From: a virus
Direction: 5' to 3' (one strand)
IMG/VR virus record: IMGVR_UViG_3300032289_002165
Coordinates: 1-28,881 of that record
Length of the DNA stretch: 28,881 nucleotides
Positions 2,305 to 27,677 of the stretch are shown piece by piece; positions within the stretch are counted from its first letter, which is position 1, and each line of letters begins with the position of its first letter. A program made the translations under genes and the position numbers. Below the pieces are notes generated by a model. That model saw only the letters and a program-made list of their open reading frames with translations, had not been told where the DNA came from and ran no database searches.

Positions 2305-3334
2305 AAAAATTATTATAACCGGTGTTACTGGTCAAGATGGCAGTTATATGGCAGACCTTTTATTAGAAGAAACTGACTATGTAATTTACGGTATGGTTCG
2401 AAGAACTTCTACAAATAATTATTCTAATATAAAACATTTATTATTAAATTCTCGATTTAAACTCGTTACTGGCGATTTAACAGATTCGCAATCAATAGAT
2501 AATATTGTAAGAGAAATTGAACCAGATTATTTTATTAATTTGGCGGCTCAAAGTTTTGTTGGCGCTTCTTGGCAAATTCCAGAGCAAACATTTGATATTG
2601 ATGCTATTGGCGTTATTAGATGTTTAGAAGCTATAAGAAAACACGCTCCCAAATGTCGATTTTATAACGCTGGTTCTTCAGAAGAGCTTGGTAATGTTGA
2701 TTATAGCCCACAAGATGAAAATCACCCATTAAAACCAAGAAGTCCATATGGTGCCGCAAAAGCAGCAGCAAGACATATTGTTAAAGTTTATAGAGAGAGT
2801 TATAATCTTTTTGCAATTCAAGGGTTATTATATAACCACGAAAGCCCAAGGCGTGGCGAAGAATTTGTAACAAGAAAAATAACAAAAGAAATAGCAAGAA
2901 TTAAAAAAGCGCTTGATTATAAATATGAATTTAAACCATTAGAGTTAGGTAATATTTATGCACAAAGAGATTGGAGCCATGCAAAAGATTTTGTTAGAGG
3001 TATTTGGATGATGTTAAATCAAGACGAGCCAAAAGAATATATTTTAGCATCTGGGGAAACTCATACCGTAAAAGAATTTATTGAAAAAGCTTTTGAACAT
3101 ATTAATATTAAAGGATTTTGGGGTGGCAAAGAATTAGACGAAAAATATTATTTTGATAATAAAATTTTAGTACAAATTAATCCAGTATATTATAGGCCAG
3201 CAGAAGTTGATTTACTTTTAGGAAATCCGCACGAAGCAAAAGAAAAATTAAATTGGGAATCTAAAATTACATTTTTAGAGATGGTAGAAGAAATGGTAAA
3301 AAATGATTTAGAAAAAAATATAAATAAAGTGTAA
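2288..3334 (+). CDS. gmd: GDP-mannose 4,6-dehydratase
   Basis: Converts GDP-D-mannose to GDP-4-keto-6-deoxy-D-mannose, the precursor of GDP-fucose, GDP-rhamnose and related sugars. The 348-residue protein is an extended short-chain dehydrogenase. It has the NADP-binding G-V-T-G-Q-D-G (12-18), active-site S130 with E132 in G-S-S-E, the Y154-x3-K158 pair in S-P-Y-G-A-A-K, and the family signature N-H-E-S-P-R-R-G. Length is near the usual 340-370. The start at 2288 is chosen because GAGGA (2275-2279) lies 8 bases upstream; 2291 and 2297 are alternatives, and the longer frame from 2264 adds residues the family lacks. No GDP-fucose synthase or RMD reductase is visible in the window, so the final sugar is unknown; the host or another part of the genome may supply the next step. 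Confidence 0.95.
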   Translation: MMNMLKKIIITGVTGQDGSYMADLLLEETDYVIYGMVRRTSTNNYSNIKHLLLNSRFKLVTGDLTDSQSIDNIVREIEPDYFINLAAQSFVGASWQIPEQTFDIDAIGVIRCLEAIRKHAPKCRFYNAGSSEELGNVDYSPQDENHPLKPRSPYGAAKAAARHIVKVYRESYNLFAIQGLLYNHESPRRGEEFVTRKITKEIARIKKALDYKYEFKPLELGNIYAQRDWSHAKDFVRGIWMMLNQDEPKEYILASGETHTVKEFIEKAFEHINIKGFWGGKELDEKYYFDNKILVQINPVYYRPAEVDLLLGNPHEAKEKLNWESKITFLEMVEEMVKNDLEKNINKV

Positions 3335-3338: not shown

Positions 3339-3343
3339 TATTT

Positions 3344-4954: not shown

Positions 4955-5919
4955 TGAACATTTTTTGGCCGGATATTCATAAAAATTTAACAAAAGGAAT
5001 CGCAGAAGCTTTTAATTTTTTGGGATATACGTTAATTTTACCATCTAATAAATATAAAATAACACATAGACCTCCAAATCAATTTAGCCAATTTGTTTGG
5101 AATGAACAATGGACGCAAGAAAAAGCCGATTTGTTTTTTAAACATAAAAATGTTAAAGTTTTAAATAAAGAAGAAATTTTAGATTTAAAACCCGAAATTT
5201 TATTTATATCTAATTTCGAATCACAATTCGAAGTATTAAATGAGCTATGGCTACATTTAAAAGATAAATCTAAATTAGCATTTTATAGTGGCAATGATTA
5301 TTGGGATGGAGCATATCCATTTTACATTTCACAAAATTATCTTTGTGCTGATTATACTGGATATATTTTAAGTAATAAATATAAATTAAATTATTTATAT
5401 TATAAACCATGGGTTGATTATGATAGATGTAAATTTGAGGGTCCTACTGAAGGTAATATTGTTGGGATTTATATTTCTGAATACGAAAAAAATTTTAATA
5501 AAGAATACTTATATAGTAAAGAATTAGAAAAATTAACACCATATATTGAATACCAATATCATACGAATAGCACTCAAAAGGAATTAACAAAAACTTTAAA
5601 ATCTAGTATTGCTACACAACATATTAAAGGTTTAGAAGGGTATGGAATGGCGATAATTGAAAGTATGGCCTGTGGAAAGCCAGTTTTTTTACATCGACAA
5701 TTATCTCAAAATAAAAGTTTAATGCAATGGTCTATAGAAAATACAACAGCTTTATTTTTTGACTCTTCAGAAGAGTATGCTGCAAAGTTAAAAGCATTAG
5801 TCGATAGTAAAGATTATAGACATTTTTTACATTATCAAACCGCCAATACAATAAGACAAATTATAGATAACCAAAAAGAAACTGAAAAACTTAGAAACTT
5901 TTTAAATAATTTAATATAA
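4954..5919 (+). CDS. GT-B fold glycosyltransferase (GT4-like)
   Basis: Transfers a sugar from a nucleotide donor to an unknown acceptor. The C-terminal half carries the GT4-type donor-binding signature, E-G-Y-G-M-A-I-I-E-S-M-A-C-G-K-P-V (about residues 228-244), with the E-x7-E spacing expected of retaining GT-B enzymes. The N-terminal half (I-F-W-P-D-I-H, F-I-S-N-F-E) fits an acceptor Rossmann-like domain. The full length of 321 residues is slightly short for the family. The ATG overlaps the recombinase stop codon (TAATG). Leucine is mostly TTA, as in the rest of the glycan island. Substrate cannot be deduced. Confidence 0.85.
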   Translation: MNIFWPDIHKNLTKGIAEAFNFLGYTLILPSNKYKITHRPPNQFSQFVWNEQWTQEKADLFFKHKNVKVLNKEEILDLKPEILFISNFESQFEVLNELWLHLKDKSKLAFYSGNDYWDGAYPFYISQNYLCADYTGYILSNKYKLNYLYYKPWVDYDRCKFEGPTEGNIVGIYISEYEKNFNKEYLYSKELEKLTPYIEYQYHTNSTQKELTKTLKSSIATQHIKGLEGYGMAIIESMACGKPVFLHRQLSQNKSLMQWSIENTTALFFDSSEEYAAKLKALVDSKDYRHFLHYQTANTIRQIIDNQKETEKLRNFLNNLI

Positions 5920-5926
5920 TAATTTT

Positions 5927-6658: not shown

Positions 6659-6659
6659 T

Positions 6660-7646
6660 ATGATTTTATTATGTTTTGGTACGCGCCCAGAATGGCTTAA
6701 AATTAAACCTTTACTAAGTAAACTTAAAAGCTATAAACTTTTATTTACTGGGCAGCATATGGATTTATTAAAAGATATTCAAGTAGATTATAAAATTAAT
6801 ATTAATAATAATAATAATTCTAGACTAGATCAAATTATTGCTGATTGTTTATTACAATTTCCTAATGGCGACTTTGACTCTGTACTAGTACAAGGAGATA
6901 CCGCTTCTGCCTTTGGATGTGCTTTGGCCGCATTTCATCAATGCAAAAAGATTTATTATTTAGAAGCCGGATTGAGAAGTTATAATTTAGAACATCCATA
7001 TCCAGAAGAAGGTTATCGACAAATGATATCAAGATTATCTCATGTTAATTTTTGCCCGACAAATTTATCTAAAAATAACCTAACTAATGAAAAAACAAAT
7101 GGAGAATGTTTTGTTGTAGGAAATACGATATTAGATAATTTATTAGAATATAAAGAAAAATGTACATATGCCAATAAAGTTCTAGTAACACTACATAGAA
7201 GAGAAAATCATCATTTGATGGAAAAATGGTTTGTAGAAATAGATAAGCTTGCAAAAAAATATCCAAATTTAGAATTTATACTTCCAATACATCCTAATCC
7301 AAATGTAATTCGACATAAAAACTTATTACAAAATGTTAAAGTTGTCGAGCCATTAAAATATAAAGATTTGTTAAATTTATTAGTTGAATGTAAATTAGTA
7401 ATTACTGATAGCGGTGGACTACAAGAAGAGGGCTCTTTTTTTAATAAAAAAGTCATTGTATGCAGAAAAATTACAGAAAGACCGGAGGCTATTAATACAA
7501 ATCATTTACATTTGTGTTTGTCTCCATCAAGTTTAGAAAATATTTTTGATAATTTAGTTATTGATTATATTATTAATGAAGACTGTCCATATGGAGATGG
7601 ATTTTCTAGTGGTAAAATAGTAAAAATAATTAATGAAAATATTTAA
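6660..7646 (+). CDS. wecB: UDP-N-acetylglucosamine 2-epimerase (non-hydrolysing)
   Basis: Interconverts UDP-GlcNAc and UDP-ManNAc for surface polysaccharide synthesis. Family landmarks in order are F-G-T-R-P-E (6-11), V-Q-G-D-T-A-S-A-F-G with Asp80, Y-L-E-A-G-L-R-S with Glu102, P-E-E-G-Y-R with Glu116/117, V-G-N-T-I-L-D, T-L-H-R-R-E-N with His179, I-H-P-N-P, T-D-S-G-G-L-Q-E-E and E-R-P-E-A. These match the UDP-binding and catalytic positions of WecB. At 328 residues it is about 40 shorter than usual, largely in the N-terminal domain, where the linker is replaced by a run of Asn (N49-N53). The ATG follows the previous stop by one base. UDP-ManNAc dehydrogenase is not seen in the window. Confidence 0.93.
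   Translation: MILLCFGTRPEWLKIKPLLSKLKSYKLLFTGQHMDLLKDIQVDYKININNNNNSRLDQIIADCLLQFPNGDFDSVLVQGDTASAFGCALAAFHQCKKIYYLEAGLRSYNLEHPYPEEGYRQMISRLSHVNFCPTNLSKNNLTNEKTNGECFVVGNTILDNLLEYKEKCTYANKVLVTLHRRENHHLMEKWFVEIDKLAKKYPNLEFILPIHPNPNVIRHKNLLQNVKVVEPLKYKDLLNLLVECKLVITDSGGLQEEGSFFNKKVIVCRKITERPEAINTNHLHLCLSPSSLENIFDNLVIDYIINEDCPYGDGFSSGKIVKIINENI
6804..6818 (+). repeat. (AAT)5 simple repeat
   Basis: Five perfect AAT units in frame encode Asn49-Asn53 of the epimerase, in a surface-loop position where the family normally has more sequence. A replication-slippage product is the simplest reading; unit number could vary without frameshift. Confidence 0.75.
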
Positions 7647-8328
7647 TGAAGAAATAAAAAAAATTTTTGATAAACTTCAAAAAAAACAGCCATTTAGTTT
7701 CAGTAAATATGCTGATGGAGAATGGGCTATTATAAATGGACATAATATCAATAATGGAGAATTTAATTTCATTCAAGATAAAGATTCTGAGTTTTATAGA
7801 CAAAAACTAATTGAATCATTTCAATTTAAAAATGATCAATATTACGTTGGTATTAGTTGCGAATGTTGTCAAGGACAAGAACATTTTAAAATGAAAGAAA
7901 TGAGTAATCAGGATGACGACCATTTAACTTTTGCGAATGTTTTCGTTAATCATAATTATGAATTTTATAAACAAAATTTTATACCAGAGTACCAAAATCA
8001 TAAAGTATATCTGATAGCAAATAAAACTTCTAAAGTGAAAAATTTGCCGTTTAAACTAGAAAAATTTTATCCAGTAGAAGAAACAGCTTTTATTAAAAAT
8101 TATGATTTGATAAAAGAAATACAAAAAGAAAATATTCAAAATAGCTTATTTTTATTTTGCGCTGGACCTTTTGGAAATATATTGGCCCATCAACTTTTCC
8201 AATATAACCCAAATAATATTTATTTAGATATCGGATCGACATTAAACCCTTGGTTACAATCAGAAGGATTTAAAAGAGACTATTATGTTAATACATATCT
8301 TACAAATATGACATGCGTATGGAATTAA
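7633..8328 (+). CDS. GT-D-like glycosyltransferase (DUF1792-related)
   Basis: A 231-residue protein whose N-terminus, F-S-F-S-K-Y-A-D-G-E-W (21-31), matches the D-x-E motif region that defines the GT-D fold (DUF1792) glycosyltransferases; here D28-G-E30. Later, L-F-C-A-G-P-F-G-N-I-L-A-H near residues 177-189 and Y-L-D-I-G-S-T-L-N-P-W at about 197-207 resemble the Rossmann-like nucleotide-binding segments of that family. C-E-C-C near 76-79 is unusual. The start overlaps the epimerase gene by 14 bases, so the two are probably translated together. The assignment comes from motif resemblance only; a related but non-glycosyltransferase Rossmann protein is possible. Confidence 0.65.
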   Translation: MKIFNEEIKKIFDKLQKKQPFSFSKYADGEWAIINGHNINNGEFNFIQDKDSEFYRQKLIESFQFKNDQYYVGISCECCQGQEHFKMKEMSNQDDDHLTFANVFVNHNYEFYKQNFIPEYQNHKVYLIANKTSKVKNLPFKLEKFYPVEETAFIKNYDLIKEIQKENIQNSLFLFCAGPFGNILAHQLFQYNPNNIYLDIGSTLNPWLQSEGFKRDYYVNTYLTNMTCVWN

Positions 8329-9023
8329 GAAATATTGTATATTCACATTCTGAATATTTTGATGTATTAGAAATATTTTTAGAACAACAGGAGTTATATG
8401 GAATAAATACTGAGAATTTTATTATTTTTTCAGATAAACAATATAAGAATTACGAATGTATTATTTATAATAGTTTATTATCCTATCCAGATAGGATGAT
8501 TTATTGTTTAGAAAAAATTAATTATGAAATAATATTATATCAACACGAAGATATGTTTCTTTATGATTTTCCAGATACAATTAAAATTAAACAATATTTA
8601 AATTTTCTAAATGAATCTAGCTATTCATTTTTAAGGCTTTGTAGAACTGGCGCTTGTAATTTAAATCAAATAGAAAAATTTAATTCTTTATTTGAAATAC
8701 AAAAAGAATGTAGTGATTTTTTTGCTGTGCAGCCAACTATTTGGAAAACAAAAGATCTTATTAAATTTTTGTCAAATGCGGGGCAAATATCTATTTGGGA
8801 ATTAGAGTCTAATAGTTCAAAAATTTCTAAATATGTAGATATTACAGGGTTAATTCATTTCGATAATGAGAATCAAAGAGGTGGACATTTTAATTCAAAA
8901 ATTTGGCCATATGTCGCTACAGCAATAGTTAAAGGAAAATGGAATTTTATTGAATATAATCAAGAATTGAATAAAATAGATAAAATAAAAATTAATTTTA
9001 GACAAAAATTAATAACTATCTAA
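8319..9023 (+). CDS. Uncharacterised protein in the glycan island
   Basis: Function not recognised. The 234-residue product (start at 8319; an in-frame ATG at 8313 is an alternative) has I-I-L-Y-Q-H-E-D-M-F-L-Y-D at 71-83, where H-E-D follows a hydrophobic strand as a DxD-like metal motif does in GT-A enzymes. Later stretches R-L-C-R-T-G, F-A-V-Q-P-T-I-W-K-T and I-W-E-L-E also resemble acceptor-side pieces of small glycosyltransferases, as I recall them. It lies between a GT-D-like enzyme and a methyltransferase, so a sugar-transfer role is plausible but unproven. It overlaps the previous gene by 10 bases. Confidence 0.6.
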   Translation: MELRNIVYSHSEYFDVLEIFLEQQELYGINTENFIIFSDKQYKNYECIIYNSLLSYPDRMIYCLEKINYEIILYQHEDMFLYDFPDTIKIKQYLNFLNESSYSFLRLCRTGACNLNQIEKFNSLFEIQKECSDFFAVQPTIWKTKDLIKFLSNAGQISIWELESNSSKISKYVDITGLIHFDNENQRGGHFNSKIWPYVATAIVKGKWNFIEYNQELNKIDKIKINFRQKLITI

Positions 9024-9026
9024 TAT
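8998..9026 (+). promoter_or_regulatory. Weak sigma70-like promoter before the FkbM gene
   Basis: TTAGAC (8998-9003) and TAATAT (9021-9026) are separated by 17 bases and lie 14 bases before the ATG at 9041. The -35 box differs from TTGACA at two positions, and the region is so AT-rich that chance is likely enough to keep this tentative. Confidence 0.3.
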
Positions 9027-9040
9027 ATATATAACTAATT

Positions 9041-9754
9041 ATGATACCAACTTTTAACTATCTTATAAATAAGTATAATATAAAAATTAAAGGAGTTATA
9101 CATGTTGGTGCTCATGAAGGGCAGGAAACTTTAAGTTATATAAATGAAAATATAAATAAAGTAATTTTAATTGAAGCAAATCCACATAGATTCGAAAATT
9201 TAAAAGAATCTATTCAAACGGGAAGATACTGTACAAATTGTACTCCATTAGAATATATTTTTCTTAATCAAATACAGGCAGATATACTAAAAAAATATGC
9301 TGTATATAATTATGCCATAAGTGATGTAGAAGAAGGCTTTCTAGAATTTAATTTAAGTAATTATGACGGAGGGGTAGATTCGTTATTTAAAATAAACAAT
9401 TTTGGAACAAATTCATCTTGGGTAAATTATGAACATGTCGATAAAATTAAAGTACCAACAACTACTTTGGATAATCTAATTAAAGATAATAATGAATTTA
9501 ACTTTTTAAATATTGATGTCGAAGGTGCTGAATTATTAGTCTTAAAAGGGTCTGTTGAATTATTAAAAAATATCGATTTTATTTTACTCGAAACTCAAGA
9601 TATGCAAAGATTTGATGGGTCTTGTACTAAACAAGATTTAATTGATTATCTTAAAAACTTTAATTTTAAACTTGTAGAATATTTTGATACAGGAAAAAAT
9701 TGGGGGGATAGTTTTTTTATAAAAAATAAATATAATGTTATTTTAAATAAATGA
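9041..9754 (+). CDS. FkbM-family SAM-dependent methyltransferase
   Basis: Probably O-methylates a sugar of the glycan made by the neighbouring enzymes. The 237-residue protein has motif I of FkbM enzymes, V-I-H-V-G-A-H-E-G-Q-E-T (19-30), then an acidic strand end I-L-I-E-A-N-P (42-48) that would bind the ribose of SAM. The family signature F-L-N-I-D-V-E-G-A-E-L-L-V-L-K-G is at 155-170. Family knowledge (sugar or polyketide O-methylation) plus the context of glycosyltransferases support this; the substrate is unknown. Its stop overlaps the next start by 4 bases (ATGA). Confidence 0.9.
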   Translation: MIPTFNYLINKYNIKIKGVIHVGAHEGQETLSYINENINKVILIEANPHRFENLKESIQTGRYCTNCTPLEYIFLNQIQADILKKYAVYNYAISDVEEGFLEFNLSNYDGGVDSLFKINNFGTNSSWVNYEHVDKIKVPTTTLDNLIKDNNEFNFLNIDVEGAELLVLKGSVELLKNIDFILLETQDMQRFDGSCTKQDLIDYLKNFNFKLVEYFDTGKNWGDSFFIKNKYNVILNK

Positions 9755-11127
9755 TTAGTTTAATTATATTTGACTTAGATGGGGTTTTGATTGACGCTAG
9801 GGAAATTCACTACGAAGCTCTTAATAGAGCTATATCTTTAATTGGTCAAGAATTTACAATAAACAAAGAAGAACATTTATCTACATATGACGGTTTACCA
9901 ACAAAAAATAAATTACAATTATTGTCAAAAAATAAAAACTTACCAATAGGTAAACATGATTTAATATGGAACAATAAACAAAAATTTACAATAGAAGTAA
10001 TTAATGAAACGGTCAAAGAAGATAAAAGACTTAAATTAATTTTAAAAGAATTAAAAAATCAAGGATATAAAATTTATGTAGCTTCAAACTCTATTAAAGA
10101 AACTATTAAAGCAATTTTATTAAAAAAGGGGTTCATGGAATATGTGGATAATTATTATTCAAATGAAGATGTAAAGAATCCAAAACCAAAAGCTGAAATA
10201 TATTTAAAATGTATGATAGATGCTGGAGTTGATCCAGATGAATGTTTAATAGTAGAGGATTCTATCGTTGGTCGAAAAGCCGCTTTAAAAGCTGGTGGAC
10301 ATTTACATCCAGTATTAAGTAGTAACGATATTGAATTAAACAAAATAATAGATAACATAAATAAAATTAATAATAATAAAATAATGAAAACTAAGTGGAA
10401 AGATGAAAAAATGAAAGTCTTAATTCCAATGGCTGGGGCCGGAACTCGTTTTGAAAAAGCTGGGTATACATTTCCAAAACCGCTTATAGAAGTGAAAGGT
10501 AAACCAATGATTCAAGTTGTAATTGATTCTATCGGTATCGAATCAAAACATATTTTTATTGTTCAAAAAAACCATTACGAAAAATATAATTTAAAAGATA
10601 CTTTAAATTTGATTAGCCCAGATTGTGAAATTACGTTAACGAATGGTTTAACAGAGGGGGCAGCGTGTACAACATTGCTAGCTAAAGAATATATAAATAC
10701 AGATGAGCCACTTCTCATTGCAAATTCAGATCAATTTGTAGATTGGGATAGTAGTGAATTTATGTATTCTATGATGGCTGATAATATCGATGCTGGTATT
10801 CTTGTATTTGAATCAAACCATCCAAAATGGAGTTTTGTAAAACTAAACGAAAATGGATTTGTATCCGAAGTTGCTGAAAAAAAACCAATAAGTAATTTAG
10901 CTACTGTTGGAATTTATTTTTGGAAAAAAGGTTCAGATTATGTTAAATATGCAGAACAAATGATCTCTAAAAATATTAGGGTTAATAATGAATTCTATGT
11001 TTGCCCAGTATTTAATGAAGCAATTCAAGATGGTAAAAAAATAAAAGTATTTCAAATTGATAATAGCAAAATGTGGGGAATTGGAACACCAGAAGATTTA
11101 AATTATTTTTTAGAAAATTTTAAATAA
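9751..11127 (+). CDS. Fusion of HAD phosphatase and sugar-phosphate nucleotidyltransferase
   Basis: Two enzymes in one 458-residue chain. Residues 1-205 are a HAD hydrolase of the beta-phosphoglucomutase/phosphatase type: D8-L-D10-G-V-L-I-D, then V-A-S-N-S (motif II Ser), N-P-K-P-K-A-E-I-Y (motif III Lys) and V-E-D-S-I-V-G (motif IV). Residues 225-458 are a nucleotidyltransferase: M-A-G-A-G-T-R-F with F-P-K-P-L-I-E-V after it, and N-S-D-Q-F near 325 as metal site. The linker is an Asn/Lys-rich stretch coded by AAT repeats, with in-frame ATGs at 10384 and 10411, the second exactly where stand-alone nucleotidyltransferases begin (M-K-V-L-I-P-M-A-G-A-G). The chain likely dephosphorylates one intermediate and activates a sugar or polyol phosphate. 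The sugar is unknown. Confidence 0.9.
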   Translation: MISLIIFDLDGVLIDAREIHYEALNRAISLIGQEFTINKEEHLSTYDGLPTKNKLQLLSKNKNLPIGKHDLIWNNKQKFTIEVINETVKEDKRLKLILKELKNQGYKIYVASNSIKETIKAILLKKGFMEYVDNYYSNEDVKNPKPKAEIYLKCMIDAGVDPDECLIVEDSIVGRKAALKAGGHLHPVLSSNDIELNKIIDNINKINNNKIMKTKWKDEKMKVLIPMAGAGTRFEKAGYTFPKPLIEVKGKPMIQVVIDSIGIESKHIFIVQKNHYEKYNLKDTLNLISPDCEITLTNGLTEGAACTTLLAKEYINTDEPLLIANSDQFVDWDSSEFMYSMMADNIDAGILVFESNHPKWSFVKLNENGFVSEVAEKKPISNLATVGIYFWKKGSDYVKYAEQMISKNIRVNNEFYVCPVFNEAIQDGKKIKVFQIDNSKMWGIGTPEDLNYFLENFK

Positions 11128-11132
11128 TATAA

Positions 11133-11558
11133 ATGAAAATTATTTCTCATAGAGGTAATTTAAATGGACCGAATCCTATTATTGAAAATTCCATATCGGC
11201 AATTAATATAGCTTTAAATAAAGGTTTTGATGTTGAAATAGATGTTTGGTTTAAAAATAATAAATGGTACCTAGGACATGATAAACCACTTTACCAAGTA
11301 GAAGAATCTTTTCTTCAGAATCATAAACTATGGTGCCATGCAAAAAATTTAAATGCCTTAGATTTACTGTTAAAAAATAAAAAAATACACTGTTTTTGGC
11401 ATCAAAATGACGATTTTACATTAACTTCTAAAAATTATATTTGGACATACCCAAATAAAAAAACAGTAAATAATTCTATTATCGTGCTAATTAAAAAACA
11501 GAAAATTGCCAAAAATATTTTTGGTATATGTACAGATTACCCATTATTATACATTTAA
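11133..11558 (+). CDS. Short glycerophosphodiester phosphodiesterase-like (GDPD) protein
   Basis: The N-terminal half carries the GDPD catalytic pattern: H6-R7 in I-S-H-R-G, E18-N-S, E35-I-D37 in V-E-I-D-V-W (metal ligands) and H49-D50 in L-G-H-D. These are the acid-base histidines and calcium/magnesium ligands of the TIM-barrel phosphodiesterases. At 141 residues it has only just over half the usual 230-250, although the reading frame ends with a plausible C-terminus (T-D-Y-P), and other compact forms exist in polysaccharide clusters. Placement directly after the phosphatase/nucleotidyltransferase fusion suggests a phosphoglycerol-type or sugar-phosphate substrate, by inference. Start at 11133 sits 5 bases after the previous stop. 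Confidence 0.75.
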   Translation: MKIISHRGNLNGPNPIIENSISAINIALNKGFDVEIDVWFKNNKWYLGHDKPLYQVEESFLQNHKLWCHAKNLNALDLLLKNKKIHCFWHQNDDFTLTSKNYIWTYPNKKTVNNSIIVLIKKQKIAKNIFGICTDYPLLYI

Positions 11559-11572
11559 CATATAAAATTTAG

Positions 11573-11986
11573 ATGAAATTTAAAAACATTTTTGGAAAAG
11601 AAGTCAATAAAACAATTAACAAGTTTTTAATTGATTGGAATAAACCTTGTAAAAGTAAAGTACAATTTAATGTAAAAAAATTTTTTGAACACTCTTGGAG
11701 TACTCATGTTGTAGTCGAAGAGTTTCCAGTTTTTGGAACGAGAATGAAATGCGATCTTATTAATTTTACAAAAAAAATCGCAGTAGAAACACATGGGCTT
11801 CAACATGATAAATTTGTGAAACATTTTCATAAAACAAAAACCGGATTTAAAAATAGCGTTAAAAGAGATTTACAAAAGTACACATGGCTTGAAATGAATG
11901 GTTTTCGAGTTATTGAAATTTTTGAGAATGAACTTTTAAATTTATCGCCAAAATGGATAAAAGAAAAATTTGATATAGAAATTTAG
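11573..11986 (+). CDS. Vsr/PD-(D/E)XK-like endonuclease
   Basis: A 137-residue protein whose second half has the layout of Vsr/DUF559-type nucleases. E50 lies in V-V-E-E-F, D61 in M-K-C-D-L-I-N-F ends the first core strand, E72-T-H74-G-L-Q-H ends the second. A basic helix follows (R98-D-L-Q-K) and the strand F-R-V-I-E-I after G110. The E-x-H-G-x-Q-H ending resembles the very-short-patch fold and the related EDxHD homing endonucleases, so it may be a mobile nuclease or a repair enzyme. It sits at the seam between the glycan island and the replication operon, a typical place for a free-standing endonuclease. No catalytic test is possible here. Confidence 0.7.
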   Translation: MKFKNIFGKEVNKTINKFLIDWNKPCKSKVQFNVKKFFEHSWSTHVVVEEFPVFGTRMKCDLINFTKKIAVETHGLQHDKFVKHFHKTKTGFKNSVKRDLQKYTWLEMNGFRVIEIFENELLNLSPKWIKEKFDIEI

Positions 11987-11987
11987 C

Positions 11988-12016
11988 TTGAATATCAAAA
12001 AAAGTTAGGCTATCAT
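11988..12016 (+). promoter_or_regulatory. Sigma70-like promoter of the replication operon
   Basis: TTGAAT (11988-11993) and TATCAT (12011-12016) are exactly 17 bases apart. The ATG of the dNMP kinase gene starts 6 bases after the -10 box, so the transcript would begin at or next to the start codon (leaderless or nearly so). It follows the end of the glycan/nuclease block, a suitable point for a new transcription unit. Confidence 0.6.
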
Positions 12017-12022
12017 ATGTGA

Positions 12023-12619
12023 ATGAGCGTATTGTACATTGGTATAGCTGGCGTTGCTAGGTCTGGGAAAGATAGTTTAGCGCTTGAGATTGAAAATTTT
12101 ATTAGGGCTTTGAAGGGTCTAACTATTTATAGAACTTCTTTAGCACAACCTCTCAAAGAAGATTGTAAAGATTTTATTAATCAATATCTTAACTTAAATG
12201 TTTTTACTGATAATAACGAAGAAAAAGCAATATTCCGTGAGTTTTTAGTATGGTATGGTAAAGTCAAACGTCAACAAACAGAAGGAAAATATTGGACAAA
12301 TCTTTTAGACAAAAGAGTCGCAAAATTTCAACCAGATGTTTGTATTGTTCCCGATATTCGTTATCAGCAATATGAACAAGACGAAGTCAGCTGGCTTAAG
12401 GCAAAACCAAATAATATTCTTATTCACTTGCAAAGGGTTGCAATTAATGGTGAAATAGTGCCACCCGCAAATATGGACGAAACTATTAATGATTCAATTA
12501 TTCAGAACAGCGCAGACTACAAAATTCTTTGGCCTACTTTTACTGATGACAATAAACAAGAGAACATGAGAGAGTTTGCTGAAAAAGCATTTAATGCAGT
12601 AATTAAAGATAAAATTTAA
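12023..12619 (+). CDS. Deoxynucleoside monophosphate kinase
   Basis: Phosphorylates dNMPs to dNDPs for phage DNA synthesis. The 198-residue protein begins Y-I-G-I-A-G-V-A-R-S-G-K-D-S (5-18): a P-loop G10-x4-G15-K16-D17 of the form usual in phage and dephospho-CoA-type kinases, where Asp follows the Lys. Also visible is R-E-F-L-V-W-Y-G-K-V-K-R at about 72-83, similar to the R-E-L-L-x-F-G segment of T4-type dNMP kinases, and I-V-P-D-I-R-Y (about 112-118), matching the P-D-x-R element. It heads an operon with helicase and primase, and has its own promoter. No clear Shine-Dalgarno sequence is present before the ATG. Confidence 0.87.
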   Translation: MSVLYIGIAGVARSGKDSLALEIENFIRALKGLTIYRTSLAQPLKEDCKDFINQYLNLNVFTDNNEEKAIFREFLVWYGKVKRQQTEGKYWTNLLDKRVAKFQPDVCIVPDIRYQQYEQDEVSWLKAKPNNILIHLQRVAINGEIVPPANMDETINDSIIQNSADYKILWPTFTDDNKQENMREFAEKAFNAVIKDKI

Positions 12620-12620
12620 T

Positions 12621-14093
12621 ATGAATTCTATTCGTAGCGTACAAATAGAAAAACACGTTCTTGCGGGGTTTCTTAAGTATCCACAGGTATATTTCGAAGT
12701 ATCTCATTTTATTAATGAGAACGACTTTTCTAACGGTCATAAAACTATCTTCAGTGTCATCAAGGGGCAAATAATGAAAAGCCAACCACTTGATCCAGTA
12801 ATCCTCGGAGAAAAAATTAAGAACTTAGGAATTAACTTTAAACAAGATTTTAATATTTTTGATTATCTTGAGAGCATTGCATTTCTTAAGATTAGTCAGA
12901 AATCACTAATTGATGCTTGTAAAAATTTAAAAACAATCACTATCCGCCGCGAGATTGCGGAAACAGCATCTCTTATCGCAGAGTCCATGGAGAACTCTGG
13001 AGATAAGTCTCCAGATGAAATTATTTCATTTGCAGATAAGATGTACAATGATAAGATTACCGCTTATGATCTAGAATCTAATCCAGAAGATCTTTTTCAA
13101 GATATCGAAAAGATGGTTGAAGAAAGAGCTAATAATCCTATTACAGAAACAGGATATCTTACACCATATAAACTTTTTAATAAAATGTATGGAGGTTTGA
13201 GGCCAGGAGAGCTTTACGCATGGGTGAGTCGTCCAAAACATGGTAAATCAACTATTCTTAGCGATATTTGTTCAAAAGCAACACTGGTTAATCCAAACAT
13301 GCAGGCTCTTATTTTGGATACCGAAATGCAAACAAACGTAATTCGTTTTCGTATTGCTAGTAGCATTACTGGTATTCCAATGTGGTGGCTTGAAACAGGA
13401 CAGTTCAGAAACAATAAAGAACTTCTGGCCAAATGGAATAGTAAGAAATCAGAGCTTGCGAAAGCACAGGGTAAAGTAAAGCACTTACAAGTAGCGGGAA
13501 AACCCATCGCAGAGATTGAATCAATTATTCAGCGTTGGTATCTTGGTCAAGTCGGACGTGGCAATCCTGCTATTGTTGTTTATGACTATATTAAACTAAC
13601 AGGGGAAATAGAAAAAGGTAAACAGGAGTATCAACTTATCGGTGACAAGGTAGATCGTCTTAAAGAACTTTCTGTTCGTATGAATATTCCAATTCTTACT
13701 GCTTGTCAATTAAATCGTAGCGCTGAAAATGGGGCTGACGATTCTAGTGCTATTGCTCAATCAGATCGTCTTCAATGGTTTGCTGCTTACGTTGGAATTT
13801 TTAGACGCAAAACTCTTGAAGAACAAGCGGAAGATGGCGCTCAATTTGGAACACATAAAATGATTGAGCTTGCATCTCGTTATCAAGGTCAACATGCTCA
13901 TGGTCATAATGATCTTGTTCGCGTTATTGAAAATAACCGCCCAGTTTATCGTAAAAATTTTATTTCATTTAATGTAGATAATTTCAATGTAGAAGAAAAA
14001 GGTACTTTACAAGATATTGTAAATCATCAGAATGGTGTTAATGTGAATATCTTTGACCGCGAAAATAATCAGGCTCAAGAAGAAATCATATGA
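12621..14093 (+). CDS. DnaB-like replicative helicase
   Basis: Hexameric 5'-3' helicase that opens the fork and recruits primase. The 490-residue chain has an N-terminal helical domain (residues 1-140, L-A-G-F-L-K-Y-P like DnaB N-domains). The RecA-fold motor shows Walker A in W-V-S-R-P-K-H-G-K-S-T (201-211), D-T-E-M (233-236), Walker B A-I-V-V-Y-D-Y-I (317-324), L-T-A-C-Q-L-N-R (359-366, the H3 region), and S-R-Y-Q-G-Q-H. The first P-loop residue is Ser, which is normal for DnaB, whose sequence is usually A-R-P. Its start follows the kinase stop by one base; the 3' end overlaps primase by 4 bases. Confidence 0.94.
   Translation: MNSIRSVQIEKHVLAGFLKYPQVYFEVSHFINENDFSNGHKTIFSVIKGQIMKSQPLDPVILGEKIKNLGINFKQDFNIFDYLESIAFLKISQKSLIDACKNLKTITIRREIAETASLIAESMENSGDKSPDEIISFADKMYNDKITAYDLESNPEDLFQDIEKMVEERANNPITETGYLTPYKLFNKMYGGLRPGELYAWVSRPKHGKSTILSDICSKATLVNPNMQALILDTEMQTNVIRFRIASSITGIPMWWLETGQFRNNKELLAKWNSKKSELAKAQGKVKHLQVAGKPIAEIESIIQRWYLGQVGRGNPAIVVYDYIKLTGEIEKGKQEYQLIGDKVDRLKELSVRMNIPILTACQLNRSAENGADDSSAIAQSDRLQWFAAYVGIFRRKTLEEQAEDGAQFGTHKMIELASRYQGQHAHGHNDLVRVIENNRPVYRKNFISFNVDNFNVEEKGTLQDIVNHQNGVNVNIFDRENNQAQEEII
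12996..13015. repeat. Perfect 8-bp inverted repeat with TAAG loop
   Basis: TCTGGAGA (12996-13003) and TCTCCAGA (13008-13015) are exact reverse complements around TAAG, inside the helicase gene between the N-terminal domain and the motor (codons for about N126-E133). The fold is GC-richer than its surroundings. It could be an RNA hairpin slowing translation between domains, or chance. Confidence 0.55.
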
Positions 14094-14986
14094 GACTTTT
14101 AGAACTTTTAAAAGATGCTGGGTGTAATCCTAGGAACTATGGTAGTTATCTTACTTGTACTGCTCGCTATCGTGGTGGTGATGATCCTGGATCTGTAGCT
14201 ATTTATCTTCAGACGAATATTGTCAAAGATTTTGTCACAGGACATTCTTTTTCTTTGGAGGAATTTCTTAAACTAACCCTTAAATTAAAAGACATAAAGC
14301 AAGTAGAACAAATTCTTGAAGATAAAGCAAAGTACTATACAGGGTTTAATAACGATGTAGAAGACCCATTTAATAGAAGTATTAAATATTATTCACAAGA
14401 AGATATTGTAGATTTGAAACAAGATGGATCATATTGGAATCGTCGCGGGATTAGCGATGAAACATTAAAAGTTTTTGAAGGTGGTCTTTGTGAGGTCGGT
14501 AAAATGTATCAAAGATATGTATTTCCAATTTTTGATGCTCGCAAAAAAATTCAAGGATTTTCTGGCCGCGATGTAACTGGTAAATCAAAAATTAAATGGA
14601 AACATATTGGCCGCAAAAACGAATGGGCATATCCATTTATATTTAATCATAAATTTATCAGAGAATCTAAACAATTAATTCTTGTTGAAAGTATTGGCGA
14701 TATGCTTTCTCTTTGGGAAAGTGGTATTAAAAATACCGGAGTAACTTTTGGGACCGAGGCTGGTGGAGGCCTGTTAAAAGCGATAATTCGCCTTGATCCT
14801 GATAGTATCATCATTGCGACCAACAATGATGAAAACAGGGCGGGGCAAAAAGCGGCTATGAAAATACGCTCAACACTCATAGACGGATTTTTTGACCCCG
14901 CCCAAATTAATATTTACCATCCATTTAAAAATGATTTTGGCGACCAAACCAAAGAAGAGAATAAGGAGTGGTATTCTAACTTATGA
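14090..14986 (+). CDS. DnaG-type Toprim primase
   Basis: Makes RNA primers for the replication fork and works with the helicase coded just before it. Residues 1-60 keep the spacing of a CHC2 zinc-binding domain (Y-L-T-C-T-A-R-Y, then F-V-T-G), but the usual Cys/His ligands are gone. A catalytic core follows, Y-W-N-R-R-G-I-S (108-115) and F-P-I-F-D-A-R, with G-F-S-G-R-D. The Toprim domain has V-E-S-I-G-D (200-205, catalytic Glu), G-T-E-A-G-G-G and A-T-N-N-D-E-N-R-A-G at about 244-253, where D-x-D is replaced by N-x-D. At 298 residues it lacks the helicase-binding C-domain of DnaG, as many phage primases do. It is joined to its neighbours by ATGA overlaps. Confidence 0.88.
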   Translation: MRLLELLKDAGCNPRNYGSYLTCTARYRGGDDPGSVAIYLQTNIVKDFVTGHSFSLEEFLKLTLKLKDIKQVEQILEDKAKYYTGFNNDVEDPFNRSIKYYSQEDIVDLKQDGSYWNRRGISDETLKVFEGGLCEVGKMYQRYVFPIFDARKKIQGFSGRDVTGKSKIKWKHIGRKNEWAYPFIFNHKFIRESKQLILVESIGDMLSLWESGIKNTGVTFGTEAGGGLLKAIIRLDPDSIIIATNNDENRAGQKAAMKIRSTLIDGFFDPAQINIYHPFKNDFGDQTKEENKEWYSNL

Positions 14987-15405
14987 GAAGCACTTGGGAA
15001 CAACATGCAATGAATTTGGCGGCGATTGCTATGCAGCGTTCAGAAGATCCATACCAACAAGTAGGAGCTTGTGTTTTGGGGAATCATAACGAAGTTCTAG
15101 CTGTCTCCTATAACGGCCTTGCTGCTGGAGTTAATGTAACACGAGAATTTTGGAGTGATCGTGACGCAAGACGACCATATATGATTCATGCTGAAAGTAA
15201 CTGTCTTGCTAGAATTAAAATGGGCGAAGGCAAACTTTTAGCTTGTACTCTTCTACCATGTTCCGCATGCGCTACTAATATTGCTGCTTATGGAATTAAA
15301 CATGTTATTTTTAAAGATATCTATAATAGAGATACAAAATCAATAGATATTTTTAAATTTTATGGAATTTCTTGCCACCAAGTCGATCCAACATATCCAT
15401 TATGA
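14983..15405 (+). CDS. dCMP deaminase
   Basis: Converts dCMP to dUMP, feeding dTMP synthesis. The 140-residue protein has the cytidine/deoxycytidylate deaminase zinc site: H69-A-E71 and P92-C93-S-A-C96, and an N-terminal G-A-C-V-L-G-N segment of the T4-type enzymes. The length is close to that family (about 150-190). It sits in the replication operon with an ATGA overlap on both sides, after primase and before a nuclease. No riboswitch or allosteric region is visible. The neighbouring genome presumably has a thymidylate synthase outside the window. Confidence 0.93.
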   Translation: MRSTWEQHAMNLAAIAMQRSEDPYQQVGACVLGNHNEVLAVSYNGLAAGVNVTREFWSDRDARRPYMIHAESNCLARIKMGEGKLLACTLLPCSACATNIAAYGIKHVIFKDIYNRDTKSIDIFKFYGISCHQVDPTYPL

Positions 15406-16397
15406 GTGAACTAATAAAACTTTCAGCCAGTAGAATCAAGACATTACAATCATGTTCTTGGATGTATTATTGCAATTATAATCTTAAATTGCCACAAAAG
15501 AATAATTCTGGAGCAATGCGCGGCACTGTAGCGCATTTAATCTTCGAAGTGTTGGCCAATCCTCGACATGAACATTACGTTAAAAAAATTGTAAAAAACA
15601 AAACATGCCTAAAGTCTCCAGCAGTTTTTAAATTAATTATAAAGGCCGCTAAACGCGAAGGACTAGATTTAGATGAAATGGTAGCGCCCCTAAAAAAGAG
15701 TGGGCAAGAAGTAACTAATCTTAAATGTATAGATGAGATGATTCTAGTTGGTTTAAAATTTGATTTTATTGAGGATTATAAACTTATTGGTTCTGAATGG
15801 GAATTTGATATTACGAACGAAGAGCCTAAATACAGAATTGGTGGGTTTGTTGATCGTATTTTTAAAGATAAAAATCAAATGATTATTAGAGATTTTAAAT
15901 CTAGTAAGAAGGCTTTTAAAGGAGATGAATTAGAAAGTAATCTACAAGGAATGATGTACTCACTAGCTCTTCGTAAAAAATACAAAAAACAAAAAGATAT
16001 TTTAGTAAGATTCTTATTTTTAAGATATCCCGATGATCCAGAAAGAGAATGCCCACATTTTAATGAAGAAGAGTTAATTGGTTTTGAGCATTACCTTGAA
16101 TATATTAGCACATATTTAAAAAACTTTGATGAAAAAAAGGCTCGATCAAATTTTGCTTCTAGCGAATTTAGTCGTAAATGGATGTGCAAAACAAAATCTG
16201 GATGGCGCTGTCCATATTTAGATTCAATTGAATATAAGGTTCTTATAGATAAAGAAGGCAAAATTATTAAATCTATTTTTGCAAACGAGGAATTTAAAGA
16301 AAAAGATTTAAAACCAGAATATCGTATTGAAATAAGAAAATATGAGGGCTGCCCCGCTTGGAAACAAGTTCAGTCAAATAATGACTTTGACTTTTAA
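15402..16397 (+). CDS. Cas4/RecB-like PD-(D/E)XK nuclease with Cys cluster
   Basis: A 331-residue nuclease of the RecB/Cas4/AddB branch. Core residues are H45 in G-T-V-A-H (motif helix), D151 in G-G-F-V-D-R, D164-F-K166 in I-I-R-D-F-K-S-S, and Q182-x3-Y186. Cysteines are C18 and C24 at the N-terminus and C262, C270 and C317 near the C-terminus, the one-plus-three arrangement that holds an iron-sulfur cluster in Cas4 and AddB. It probably degrades or trims DNA ends during recombination or replication. The start at 15402 is chosen from the ATGA overlap with the deaminase. A promoter for the polymerase genes begins inside its last codons. Confidence 0.85.
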   Translation: MSELIKLSASRIKTLQSCSWMYYCNYNLKLPQKNNSGAMRGTVAHLIFEVLANPRHEHYVKKIVKNKTCLKSPAVFKLIIKAAKREGLDLDEMVAPLKKSGQEVTNLKCIDEMILVGLKFDFIEDYKLIGSEWEFDITNEEPKYRIGGFVDRIFKDKNQMIIRDFKSSKKAFKGDELESNLQGMMYSLALRKKYKKQKDILVRFLFLRYPDDPERECPHFNEEELIGFEHYLEYISTYLKNFDEKKARSNFASSEFSRKWMCKTKSGWRCPYLDSIEYKVLIDKEGKIIKSIFANEEFKEKDLKPEYRIEIRKYEGCPAWKQVQSNNDFDF

Positions 16398-16415
16398 AAA
16401 AAGTATTGCTAATAT
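16387..16415 (+). promoter_or_regulatory. Sigma70-like promoter of the polymerase genes
   Basis: TTGACT (16387-16392) and TAATAT (16410-16415) with a 17-base spacer, the -35 box overlapping the end of the nuclease gene. The ATG at 16424 lies 8 bases after the -10 box. This supports 16424 rather than an upstream TTG at 16406 as the start, because the TTG would lie inside the promoter. Confidence 0.65.
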
Positions 16416-16423
16416 TAGGCTTA

Positions 16424-17191
16424 ATGCTACCAATCTTTAGATCAAACTACTCATTGAGTTCGGTTCTTACTCTAGAGCCATACGCTCCTAGAGAGGATAG
16501 AGCCTTAAACCAGCCCGATTCTGTTTTCGATATTTGTAAAGACTATGGTATTGAAGACGTTTTTATTGTTGATAATACCTTAACTGGTATGGTAGAAGCC
16601 TACGAAAATTCAAAGAAAGCAAAATTGAATTTACGTTTTGGTTATCGAGTAAATGTTTGTCAGGATATTGAAAATAAAACTCCAGAGTCGGAATTGACAG
16701 AAAGCAAATTTATTATTTTTGCACTTCAAAATTCTTTTACAGATTTAATCAAATTGCATAATATTTCTACTACAATAGGAATCTACAACGGGAAAGCCCG
16801 TCTTGATTTTAAAACTTTAAAAGAGAATTGGAGTAAAAATCTCTTGCTTGCTGTTCCATTTTATGATTCTTACGTTTATTATAATCTTCTTTATGGTCGC
16901 CAATGCGTTCCAGAATTAGATTTTACAGATCCAGTTTATTTTATTGAAAATAATGGTTTGCCATTCGATGGTCTTTTAATTAATCATATTCAAGAAACTA
17001 TTAAAGATCATGAAATTATTCCGTCGAAAACTATTTATTATCGTGAGCGTAAAGACTTTAAATCTTATATGACGTATCGCTGTATTTTGAATCGGACAAC
17101 ATTCCAAAAACCAGAGTTACGTCATTTTGGAAGTCAAGAGTTTTGTATGGAGGCTTGGAAAGAAGTTACCCAAGAAAATAGTGTAAAATAA
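16424..17191 (+). CDS. PHP-like N-terminal part of Pol III alpha, separate gene
   Basis: A 255-residue protein that matches the PHP domain position of DnaE/PolC-type polymerases. It begins L-P-I-F-R-S-N-Y-S-L, where active PHP domains have H-x-H-x-x-Y-S. It later has G-I-E-D-V-F-I-V-D-N-T-L-T-G and L-R-F-G-Y-R-V-N-V, matching the A-I-T-D-H and P-I-x-G-x-E positions. Histidine and acidic metal ligands are mostly replaced, so it is probably structural, stabilising the polymerase rather than proofreading. The polymerase core gene downstream lacks this domain, so the two likely form one enzyme. An endonuclease gene separates them. Confidence 0.75.
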   Translation: MLPIFRSNYSLSSVLTLEPYAPREDRALNQPDSVFDICKDYGIEDVFIVDNTLTGMVEAYENSKKAKLNLRFGYRVNVCQDIENKTPESELTESKFIIFALQNSFTDLIKLHNISTTIGIYNGKARLDFKTLKENWSKNLLLAVPFYDSYVYYNLLYGRQCVPELDFTDPVYFIENNGLPFDGLLINHIQETIKDHEIIPSKTIYYRERKDFKSYMTYRCILNRTTFQKPELRHFGSQEFCMEAWKEVTQENSVK

Positions 17192-17211
17192 GTGCTACTG
17201 TTTCAGTATGT

Positions 17212-17225
17212 AGTGTAATAAAATA
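17212..17225 (+). promoter_or_regulatory. AGTGTAATAAAATA element before the LAGLIDADG gene
   Basis: This sequence ends one base before the ATG at 17227 and resembles the AGTGTAAA element of 22806-22817 and 27597-27606. A near copy, AGTGTAAAATA at 17180-17190, ends the PHP-like gene 32 bases earlier. It could be a late-type promoter brought with the homing gene, or a short duplication at its boundary. Confidence 0.3.
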
Positions 17226-17226
17226 A

Positions 17227-18066
17227 ATGAATATTTATAGACAAAAATTAGAAATTAATAAGAAAAATATAATCAAAGATTATAAAAACGGACTTTCTAT
17301 TAAAAATATTAAAAAAAAATATGGGCACGATAATAAAATTTTATTAGAGATGCTAAAAGAAAATAATTGTGAAATTCGTGGAAAAAGAGAGTCACATTTA
17401 AAATACTGGTGTGACGAAAATATTTTTGATAAGATTGATTCTTCAGAAAAAGCATATTGGTTAGGGTTTTTATATGCCGACGGAAATATTTATCAAAATA
17501 AATTACAATTACGATTAGGAAAAAAAGATTTGAACCATTTAAAAAAATTTAAATCTTTTATAAGATCTAATCATAAAATTTATAAAGATGGTAATTGTTA
17601 TGGAATTCAAATTCGTTCGCCTCAAATAGTTTCAAGTTTAATAGCTCTAGGTTTAATTAAAAATAAAACACAAAAAATTAAATATCCATCTACAAAACTT
17701 GTTCCAAATAAATTTATCAATAATTTTATTTTAGGGTATTTTGATGGAGATGGATGCTGTTCTTATAATAAATCTAGGAAAACATATTCAATATCGATAT
17801 TGGGAACAGAGAATTTGTTAAAAAAAATAAAATCTAATATTAAAAGATACGCACCATTATTAAAACCTAAAATTAGTCCAGAATCGCGTGGTAAAAAAGT
17901 ATGGGTTTTACATTTTAGCGGTGGAATTAAAAAACCAGATTCTCAAAAAAAAGTTAGTCAACTTATAAAATATTTCTGTTCTTCCGAATCAAATTATGCT
18001 TTAATAAGGAAACAAAATAAATTTTTACAAATACAAAAAGATGCAATCTCAATTACTCAGATTTAA
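17227..18066 (+). CDS. LAGLIDADG homing endonuclease, free-standing
   Basis: A 279-residue mobile endonuclease that cuts an allele lacking it. Two LAGLIDADG helices are present: Y-W-L-G-F-L-Y-A-D-G (77-86) and F-I-L-G-Y-F-D-G-D-G (167-176), each ending in the catalytic acidic residue, so it can act as a monomer. Residues 10-55 look like a helix-turn-helix (K-D-Y-K-N-G-L-S-I-K-N-I) added for DNA binding. It lies between the PHP-like and exonuclease parts of a replicative polymerase, a conserved target typical of such genes. It has no intein splice residues and its own start and stop, so I call it intronless and free-standing. Its end overlaps the exonuclease start by 26 bases. Confidence 0.92.
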   Translation: MNIYRQKLEINKKNIIKDYKNGLSIKNIKKKYGHDNKILLEMLKENNCEIRGKRESHLKYWCDENIFDKIDSSEKAYWLGFLYADGNIYQNKLQLRLGKKDLNHLKKFKSFIRSNHKIYKDGNCYGIQIRSPQIVSSLIALGLIKNKTQKIKYPSTKLVPNKFINNFILGYFDGDGCCSYNKSRKTYSISILGTENLLKKIKSNIKRYAPLLKPKISPESRGKKVWVLHFSGGIKKPDSQKKVSQLIKYFCSSESNYALIRKQNKFLQIQKDAISITQI

Positions 18067-18673
18067 CAAAAATCAAAAATATATTATATGGGATTTTGAA
18101 ACGGAAAGTCTAGCGCTTTGTCTTGCTAGGCCATTTCAATTATCATGGCTTGTTACTAATAGTGGTAAAATTTTTAAAAATGAAGACCATTTTCTTTATT
18201 GGAAAGATTTGAATGTATCTGCAGATGCTGCGCGAATTACTCGTTTTGATTATAATTTTTGGAAAGAAAAAGCAAAAGATCCGTTAGAAGTATTAAAAAA
18301 TTTTGAAAGTTATTTATATAATCCTGAATATTTAATTATTGGTGCTAATCTTTTTGGTTATGATATTTATGTTCATAATACTTTACGAAGAATATTAGGT
18401 TTAAAATCAGATTTTTCTTATCTTAATCGTGTTTTAGATATTCAGTGTATTCAAAAAGGAATATATATGGGTTTGAAGACCATTCCAGAAAACAGAACGG
18501 CTTGGCAATATCAAATGTATCATTACGTCAAGAAGGGAATCAAAACTTCTGTTAAGCATCTTGCTGGTTTATATGATATACCTTATGATGAAAATATGGC
18601 GCACGACGCAAAATATGATAACACCTTATGTCTTGAGATTTTCAAGAAGCAAATTTTGACTATTGAAATATGA
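18041..18673 (+). CDS. DEDDh 3'-5' exonuclease (proofreading)
   Basis: DnaQ/epsilon-like exonuclease, presumably the proofreader of the polymerase next to it. The 210-residue protein has ExoI W-D18-F-E20-T, ExoII G-A-N-L-F-G-Y-D108, and ExoIII H188-D-A-K-Y-D193 (H-x4-D, the DEDDh form). These four acidic residues and the His bind two metals and activate water. No other domain is visible. In PolC this exonuclease is inserted in the same polypeptide, while here it is a separate gene directly before the polymerase core, which it overlaps by 4 bases (ATGA). The ATG at 18041 lies inside the homing endonuclease gene. Confidence 0.88.
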   Translation: MQSQLLRFNKNQKYIIWDFETESLALCLARPFQLSWLVTNSGKIFKNEDHFLYWKDLNVSADAARITRFDYNFWKEKAKDPLEVLKNFESYLYNPEYLIIGANLFGYDIYVHNTLRRILGLKSDFSYLNRVLDIQCIQKGIYMGLKTIPENRTAWQYQMYHYVKKGIKTSVKHLAGLYDIPYDENMAHDAKYDNTLCLEIFKKQILTIEI

Positions 18674-21204: not shown

Positions 21205-21206
21205 AA

Positions 21207-22001: not shown

Positions 22002-22003
22002 AA

Positions 22004-22805: not shown

Positions 22806-22817
22806 TATTTTTACACT
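22806..22817 (-). promoter_or_regulatory. AGTGTAAAAATA element, candidate late promoter
   Basis: On the minus strand, AGTGTAAAAATA lies 4 bases before the ATG at 22801. No -35 box at the normal distance is visible, as expected for T4-like late promoters, whose -10-only box is TATAAATA. The same element precedes the minus-strand gene at 27589. The divergent gene at 22863 has a looser version, ATGTAAAGTATA, at 22847-22858. Confidence 0.45.
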
Positions 22818-22862
22818 TATTATATATGTACAGAATTTTATAATTAATGTAAAGTATATATT

Positions 22863-24468: not shown

Positions 24469-25136
24469 TATATTATATTTATTTTTATATAAGAGAAGAT
24501 GGAACACCTTATTATGTAGGTAGAGGTAAAAATAATCGTGCTTATACTAAACATTTTAGATCGAATGGTTTTAATTTCACACCCAAAAATAAAGATCAAA
24601 TAAAAATTATTTTTAATAATTTGAGCAAAAAACAAAGTATTGACTTAGAAAAATATTATATCCAGTGTTACGGTAGAAAAGAATTTGGTGGTATTTTAAT
24701 TAATATAAAAGAAGGCGGGGAAGATTTAAAAGACTGGACGCCCGAAATGAGAAAACGTATGTCTATACGACAAACAGGTAAAAAACATTCAGATATCACA
24801 AGATTAAAAATGTCAATAGCACATAAAGGTAAGAAATTAGAACCGGAATCTGTACAAAAAATGGTTGATACCAGACATAAATTAGGTAATTATAAACAAT
24901 CATTAAAAACAAAACAAAAATTATCTTTATCGCATATAGGACTACTTATTGGAAGTAAAAATCCTGCGGCACGGGCCGTGGATGTATATACAAAAGATGG
25001 CGATTTTATTAAAACTTTTTCAACTGGTAGAGAAGCTGCCCAATTTTTAAAATTAGGTAATTCTTGGAAACATATTCCAGAATGTTGTAAAGGTAAACGA
25101 AAATCTATAAAAGGATACAAATTTTTATATACTTGA
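24462..25136 (+). CDS. GIY-YIG homing endonuclease with NUMOD modules
   Basis: A 224-residue mobile endonuclease. The GIY-YIG nuclease domain shows Y-Y-I-Y-F-Y-I (4-10) and Y-Y-V-G-R-G (17-22), with catalytic Arg21, Glu63 and Asn81 in I-N-I-K-E-G-G. DNA-binding modules follow: NUMOD3-like pieces W-T-P-E-M-R-K-R-M-S and H-S-D-I-T-R-L-K-M-S, then a NUMOD1/IENR1-like end (Y-T-K-D-G-D-F-I, E-A-A-Q-F, Y-K-F-L-Y). It sits between head-type genes and has its own start codon inside a palindrome. Its insertion target is likely nearby. A promoter for the next gene begins within its last codons. Confidence 0.92.
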   Translation: MNIYYIYFYIREDGTPYYVGRGKNNRAYTKHFRSNGFNFTPKNKDQIKIIFNNLSKKQSIDLEKYYIQCYGRKEFGGILINIKEGGEDLKDWTPEMRKRMSIRQTGKKHSDITRLKMSIAHKGKKLEPESVQKMVDTRHKLGNYKQSLKTKQKLSLSHIGLLIGSKNPAARAVDVYTKDGDFIKTFSTGREAAQFLKLGNSWKHIPECCKGKRKSIKGYKFLYT

Positions 25137-25161
25137 CCGATAAATAAAATAGTTCTATCAT
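25133..25161 (+). promoter_or_regulatory. Sigma70-like promoter before 25171
   Basis: TTGACC (25133-25138) and TATCAT (25156-25161) with a 17-base spacer. The ATG at 25171 lies 9 bases after the -10 box, so the RNA would begin at about 25168, just upstream of the start. The -10 box lies inside the left arm of a palindrome that also covers the ATG (25155-25177). Confidence 0.65.
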
Positions 25162-27596: not shown

Positions 27597-27606
27597 TATT
27601 TACACT
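27597..27606 (-). promoter_or_regulatory. AGTGTAAATA element, candidate late promoter
   Basis: On the minus strand, AGTGTAAATA lies 7 bases before the ATG at 27589 and closely matches T4 late boxes (TATAAATA) over its last 8 bases. No -35 box is visible. It is the twin of the element before the minus-strand structural genes (22806-22817). Confidence 0.45.
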
Positions 27607-27649: not shown

Positions 27650-27677
27650 TAGACTTTATTTTAAATTCTCTTATAAT
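27650..27677 (+). promoter_or_regulatory. Sigma70-like promoter of the MoxR gene
   Basis: TAGACT (27650-27655), 16-base spacer, perfect TATAAT (27672-27677), and the ATG at 27684 just 6 bases later. It lies back to back with the minus-strand element at 27597-27606, in a 94-base divergent intergenic region. Confidence 0.5.

Follow-up and report, generated by a model that had tools for sequence, protein, structure and literature searches.

Promoters adjoining ATG start codons predict leaderless mRNAs in a family of uncultured phages

Do promoters that end a few bases before a start codon give rise to mRNAs without a leader, or are they chance look-alikes in AT-rich DNA? The window, i.e. the 28.9 kb record of an uncultured virus analysed at its full length of 28,881 nt, raises this question at four genes. 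The initial annotation had placed sigma70-like promoters 6, 8, 9, and 6 bases upstream of their ATG codons, and the coordinates proved to be exact, so that the observation of ATG-adjacent promoters is confirmed. These promoters, here termed class I, are TTGAAT-N17-TATCAT (11988..12016, +) 6 bases before ATG 12023 of a dNMP kinase gene (phrog_139), TTGACT-N17-TAATAT (16387..16415, +) 8 bases before ATG 16424 of a gene for a PHP/DNA polymerase part, TTGACC-N17-TATCAT (25133..25161, +) 9 bases before ATG 25171 of a gene that encodes a 95-aa protein and shares an operon with a vWA protein, and TAGACT-N16-TATAAT (27650..27677, +) 6 bases before ATG 27684 of a MoxR-like ATPase gene. We infer the actual +1 from the established sigma70 geometry, which places it seven bases past the −10 hexamer. 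The predicted leaders are 0 nt at 12023 and at 27684 (the +1 being 12023 and 27684, respectively), about 2 nt (0–2) at 16424, and about 3 nt (1–4) at 25171; gaps of 8–10 bases, that of 25171 among them, would accommodate a leader of 2–4 nt. A stray ATG at 12017, between the −10 box and the start codon at 12023, would be excluded from the RNA if the +1 is 12023. None of the four genes has a Shine-Dalgarno (SD) sequence, in agreement with the earlier claim of little or no leader and no SD site. A possible weak class I site, TAGAAA-N17-TATAAT (5892..5920, +), 6 bases before ATG 5927, is not kept in the sole relative that has that gene, and weak single sites like this one may be chance matches.

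For the four sites, too, chance has to be considered, i.e. AT-rich DNA could yield TTGA/TATAAT look-alikes, some of them beside an ATG. Promoter matches counted regardless of an ATG are about as frequent in the window as in shuffled sequence (122 versus 113 for positions 1–20000, and 61 versus 56 for positions 16000–28881). Only the nearness to an ATG exceeds chance in the window, and modestly: the pattern of the initial annotation, TTGA-N17-TAnnAT with an ATG within 11 bases, has 4 matches versus 0.86 after shuffling (P = 0.010), and one of these matches, located within the primase gene at 14892, is probably due to chance. The window by itself would leave the case undecided; the relatives are decisive.

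About 20 related contigs were recovered with the DnaB and vWA proteins (DnaB identities of 31–100%), several of them 100–178 kb in length. Close cultured phage relatives were searched for, and none were found. Four relatives of 138–178 kb (G001, G008, G014, and G015) and the distant G019 were read as whole genomes. Gene starts were assigned by a simple longest-ATG rule, and 447 starts were pooled over the four relatives for position counts. The related pattern TTGAC-N17-TAnnnT with an ATG within 11 bases was found 27, 32, 23, and 17 times in G001, G008, G014, and G015, versus 2.1, 1.8, 2.2, and 1.7 times in shuffled sequence, an excess of about 10- to 18-fold among genomes that are kin and hence not independent samples. 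Sites adjoining an ATG account for most of the promoter excess over chance in these four relatives; G008, e.g., has 43 TTGAC-N17-TAnnnT promoters, with 9.9 expected, and 32 of these are near an ATG. TTGAC is found at exactly −35 from the A of the ATG at 41 of the 447 starts, while most other positions have values of 0–2, and TAnnAT peaks at −12. Such spacing is expected if the +1 of the promoter coincides with the A of the ATG. A reverse-read control pattern gave few matches, and a stricter pattern gave zero control matches in all phages tested and zero matches in T4, phiYS40, Panino, and DSL-LC01. In the same analysis T4, whose GC content is similar, gave a strong SD signal and lacked the leaderless one.

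The choice of the start codon is also at odds with chance. Leaderless translation depends on a 5′-terminal AUG. Following TTGAC-N17-TAnnnT at gaps of 3–13 bases, the four relatives have ATG in 82 cases, GTG in one, TTG in three, and CTG in none, and 41 of the 82 ATG codons are at a gap of 6 bases. Taken together, the shuffles, the conservation described below, and the T4 control rule out chance AT-richness for the family as a whole, and for the sites in the window chance is a very improbable explanation. The proposal of the initial annotation that this arrangement is used on purpose, and does not reflect AT-richness, is thus strongly favoured by the shuffles and the comparison across relatives.

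SD-like sequences precede 0–9% of the genes in the leaderless classes, with energies that match those of shuffled sequence, and at three of the window sites they were found in 0, 0, and 1 of the aligned orthologues. The −10 box about 12 bp before the start, the absence of an SD motif, and the preference for AUG are features of sigma70-type leaderless units, and the family shows all three. The SD motif is also weak in the other genes of these phages, and internal genes mostly lack it. Tightly packed genes show a weak SD excess, so leaderless initiation is not the sole mode. A phage-encoded ribosomal protein S21 was considered as a translation switch and rejected because the gene is absent. G008 and G015 encode a tmRNA (Rfam RF00023; 132 and 97 bits; L051:3525-3959 (−) and L067:8700-9132 (+)), accompanied by many tRNAs, and the tag peptide of the G015 tmRNA is AKAITNAVSAVKSAMTNVVEFFCEEESYALAA.

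Across orthologues, both promoter boxes (−35 and −10) and their distance to the ATG persist while flanking bases drift. For 12023, TTGA and TAnnnT are identically placed in 12 of 18 relatives, and upstream alignments revealed the same boxes, spacer, and distance in 10 of 16 relatives for 16424 and in 7 of 13 for 25171. At 12023 the boxes are better conserved than the spacer and the gap, and at both 12023 and 16424 the −10 box is better conserved than the bases that separate it from the ATG. The promoter of 27684 is kept in several relatives; others differ, yet keep a −10 box six bases before the ATG. The −35 box of 16424 doubles as the last codons of the upstream exonuclease gene, and in L030 and L033, where the upstream sequence is unrelated, TTGACT is still present before the 16424 orthologue. 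Upstream of 25171 a homing endonuclease gene (24462–25136) is inserted that was not found in the relatives; its stop codon TGA (25134–25136) falls within the −35 hexamer TTGACC, and relatives without it still have the promoter. Another reading is that the true start is a later codon, in which case the RNA would have a normal leader. The start codons are predictions, but the P-loop of the kinase lies within about ten residues of the ATG and conservation among the relatives extends to the N-terminus from residue 1 onwards, which makes a later start extremely improbable.

The region around 16424 has some further features. The C-terminus of the upstream exonuclease, NNDFDF (16380–16397), resembles an acidic SSB-type tip and is encoded by the same bases as the next −35 box. 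From 16424 to 21204, DNA polymerase III-like functions are split over several ORFs, i.e. a PHP-like part (16424–17191), an exonuclease-like ORF (18041–18673), and the catalytic polymerase part (18670–21204), with an inserted endonuclease-like gene at 17227–18066.

The initial annotation also assigned each promoter to the first gene of an operon. This holds strictly for 27684 alone: 12023, 16424, and 25171 begin 26–36 bases past a preceding co-directional gene, and their promoters are therefore internal. Read-through RNAs from the upstream genes are probably also made, and since the three genes lie in co-directional runs, such RNAs with long 5′ regions may be translated. The promoters could thus be real and secondary, with most of the protein derived from read-through RNAs by initiation at AT-rich starts without SD or by coupling. 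The position of three of the four genes behind co-directional neighbours and the scarcity of SD motifs at internal genes are compatible with this view. However, the precise 6-base register and the near-exclusive use of ATG would be needless if the promoter merely added RNA, because a site farther upstream would serve equally, and we regard a secondary role as unlikely. In our view the sites are very probably genuine promoters that give leaderless or near-leaderless mRNAs.

Class I promoters also have a conserved element in the spacer. Of 72 distinct promoters, 88% have A at positions 9 and 10 (−21/−20) of their 17-base spacer, and AA is found at 66% of the sites near an ATG versus 19% of sites elsewhere (p ~3e-18, a generous value, since orthologues are not independent). 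One sub-family with a longer motif, approximately TTGAGTTGTCCTAAAGGTTCCGATATACT (G008 681, 2950, and 176394; G014 127281 and 125317), precedes small early-type ORFs and may include an operator. A second repeated spacer, approximately CCTCCTAAAGNATATAGAAT, also lies before small ORFs (G014 141149, 136831, and 132108; G015 137579).

When the starts that have an upstream gap were listed, a second motif surfaced, GTGTAAWWA, here termed class II. The initial annotation had recognised class I and overlooked this class. The first G of GTGTAA is at −14, −15, and −16 from the ATG at 22, 6, and 10 of the 447 starts, respectively, far above other positions, and 33 ATG codons share one exact gap. The total number of GTGTAA sequences is not above chance; their register is, with 10–12 per genome at −16 to −14 versus 0.2–0.65 expected. 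A −35 sequence was sought before class II starts, and none was conserved. By its position, class II would likewise be leaderless. The window has GTGTAA at 3329..3334 (+), 15 bases from ATG 3344, at 17213..17218 (+), 14 bases from ATG 17227 of the endonuclease-like gene that interrupts the polymerase region, at 22811..22816 (−), 15 bases from ATG 22801 of a gene for a 265-aa, probably structural protein, and at 27600..27605 (−), 16 bases from ATG 27589 of a gene for a 286-aa protein. A degenerate copy, ATGTAA, at 22847..22852 (+) lies 16 bases from ATG 22863, and in relatives GTGTAA itself occupies this position or one close to it. The motif of 22801 is kept in L026, L028, L029, L032, and L033. 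Class II persists in G019 (about 35% protein identity) and in the contig L072 (52% TerL identity), where class I shows a weak peak or none. Class II precedes mainly structural genes, long genes of a late type, and inserted homing endonucleases, a gene content that suggests late expression.

Which factors might read the two classes? Early phage genes must be transcribed by the host polymerase, so the simplest view of class I is that it is recognised by the sigma70 of the host. The family also encodes two different sigma-like proteins (L035:8354-9064 (−) and L048:16324-16923 (+)), which are candidate readers of the two promoter classes, a pairing that we infer. One, of 189–200 aa, has sigma region 2 and, weakly, region 4, its sequence matches SigA in the PDB (E 9e-5), and in G001, G008, and G015 its gene is itself preceded by a class I promoter. 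The other, A2, of 212–236 aa, has a Sigma70_r2 match above the curated cut-off in several genomes, and its gene sits three genes upstream of terL. The best fold matches of a low-confidence A2 model (pLDDT 60) are sigma factors, with a best E value of 2e-3. Class I, TTGAC-N17-TAnnAT and often AA in mid-spacer, would put the +1 on the ATG or 1–4 bases before it and would be read by RNA polymerase with a sigma70-type factor, either that of the host or the 189–200 aa phage protein. Class II, GTGTAAWWA at about −14 to −6 from the ATG without a −35 box, is probably a late promoter, and A2 would be its reader.

Class II partly resembles T4 late promoters, the exact positions of which are partly general knowledge, in that its box has about the same register relative to the predicted +1 (from −13), AT-rich DNA follows, and no −35 box is conserved. 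In contrast, it has TGTAAWWA with a preceding G instead of the 8-bp TATA-like box of T4, its mRNAs are leaderless by position, and A2, which was considered as a gp55 homologue, has no detectable similarity to that protein. T4 late promoters are read by gp55, and other T4-like phages vary at −13/−12 (PMC2988020). Leaderless middle and late mRNAs and a shift of IF2/IF3, with IF2 rising and IF3 falling upon infection, have been reported for the Thermus phage phiYS40 (PMC3594737), which is similar to the present family in being a large phage with transcripts without leaders and in sharing the class I signal (a TTGAC −35 and TANNNT −12 excess in its first 50 kb in the same test). It differs in that it infects Thermus, lacks a GTGTAA class, and has a strong SD signal too (22 versus 5.9 expected). 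In some bacterial phyla, leaderless genes preceded by TANNNT at a distance of about 12 bp are widespread (Zheng et al. 2011, PMC3160421); class I shares the −10 placement and falls within that definition, but adds a strong −35 box and the spacer AA, in a viral genome. In Deinococcus-Thermus, leaderless mRNA arises from a −10 region that lies a few bases ahead of the ORF (PMC12340547); this system shares the adjacency of −10 and ORF with class I, but is cellular, and its −35 box is optional.

A host was sought in several ways. A DnaB scan of genome contigs gave no match. The TerL alignment includes one contig in a Flavobacteriales MAG, which has the GTGTAA class and lacks the TTGAC −35 peak. 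The class I pattern showed no excess in 61 Bacteroidota genomes, 9 of which had a single match each. The closest RNR is that of Maribacter phage Panino, which is without both motifs, and a WhiB gene was looked for and not found.

As two promoter types end at the ATG, leaderless messages are apparently used throughout the life cycle. For mRNAs that start with AUG, translation would follow the leaderless route, i.e. the binding of a 70S ribosome to the 5′-terminal AUG. Whether the family commits nearly all promoter-proximal genes to leaderless initiation via two independent promoter classes, each tuned so that transcription opens with the initiator AUG, we regard as evenly balanced; if so, the translation apparatus, either that of the host or one modified by the phage, would have to favour a 5′-terminal AUG. 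Leaderless phage mRNAs were already known, and what is new is the two-class leaderless scheme and an apparently undescribed late motif: neither the two-class arrangement nor GTGTAA as a late motif or phage promoter was found in the literature searched. Gene finders and promoter annotation for phages presuppose that a leader carries the ribosome-binding site, while here the promoter marks the start codon, and starts marked in this way correct gene starts and bring to light which genes of uncultured genomes belong to the early and which to the late class. Should transcription be confirmed, these phages would offer a clear example, outside Thermus, of large phages relying on leaderless translation and, to our knowledge, the first in which a late promoter class, probably read by a phage sigma factor, is leaderless as well. 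The means by which lytic phages obtain ribosomes in the absence of SD sites would then become directly testable.
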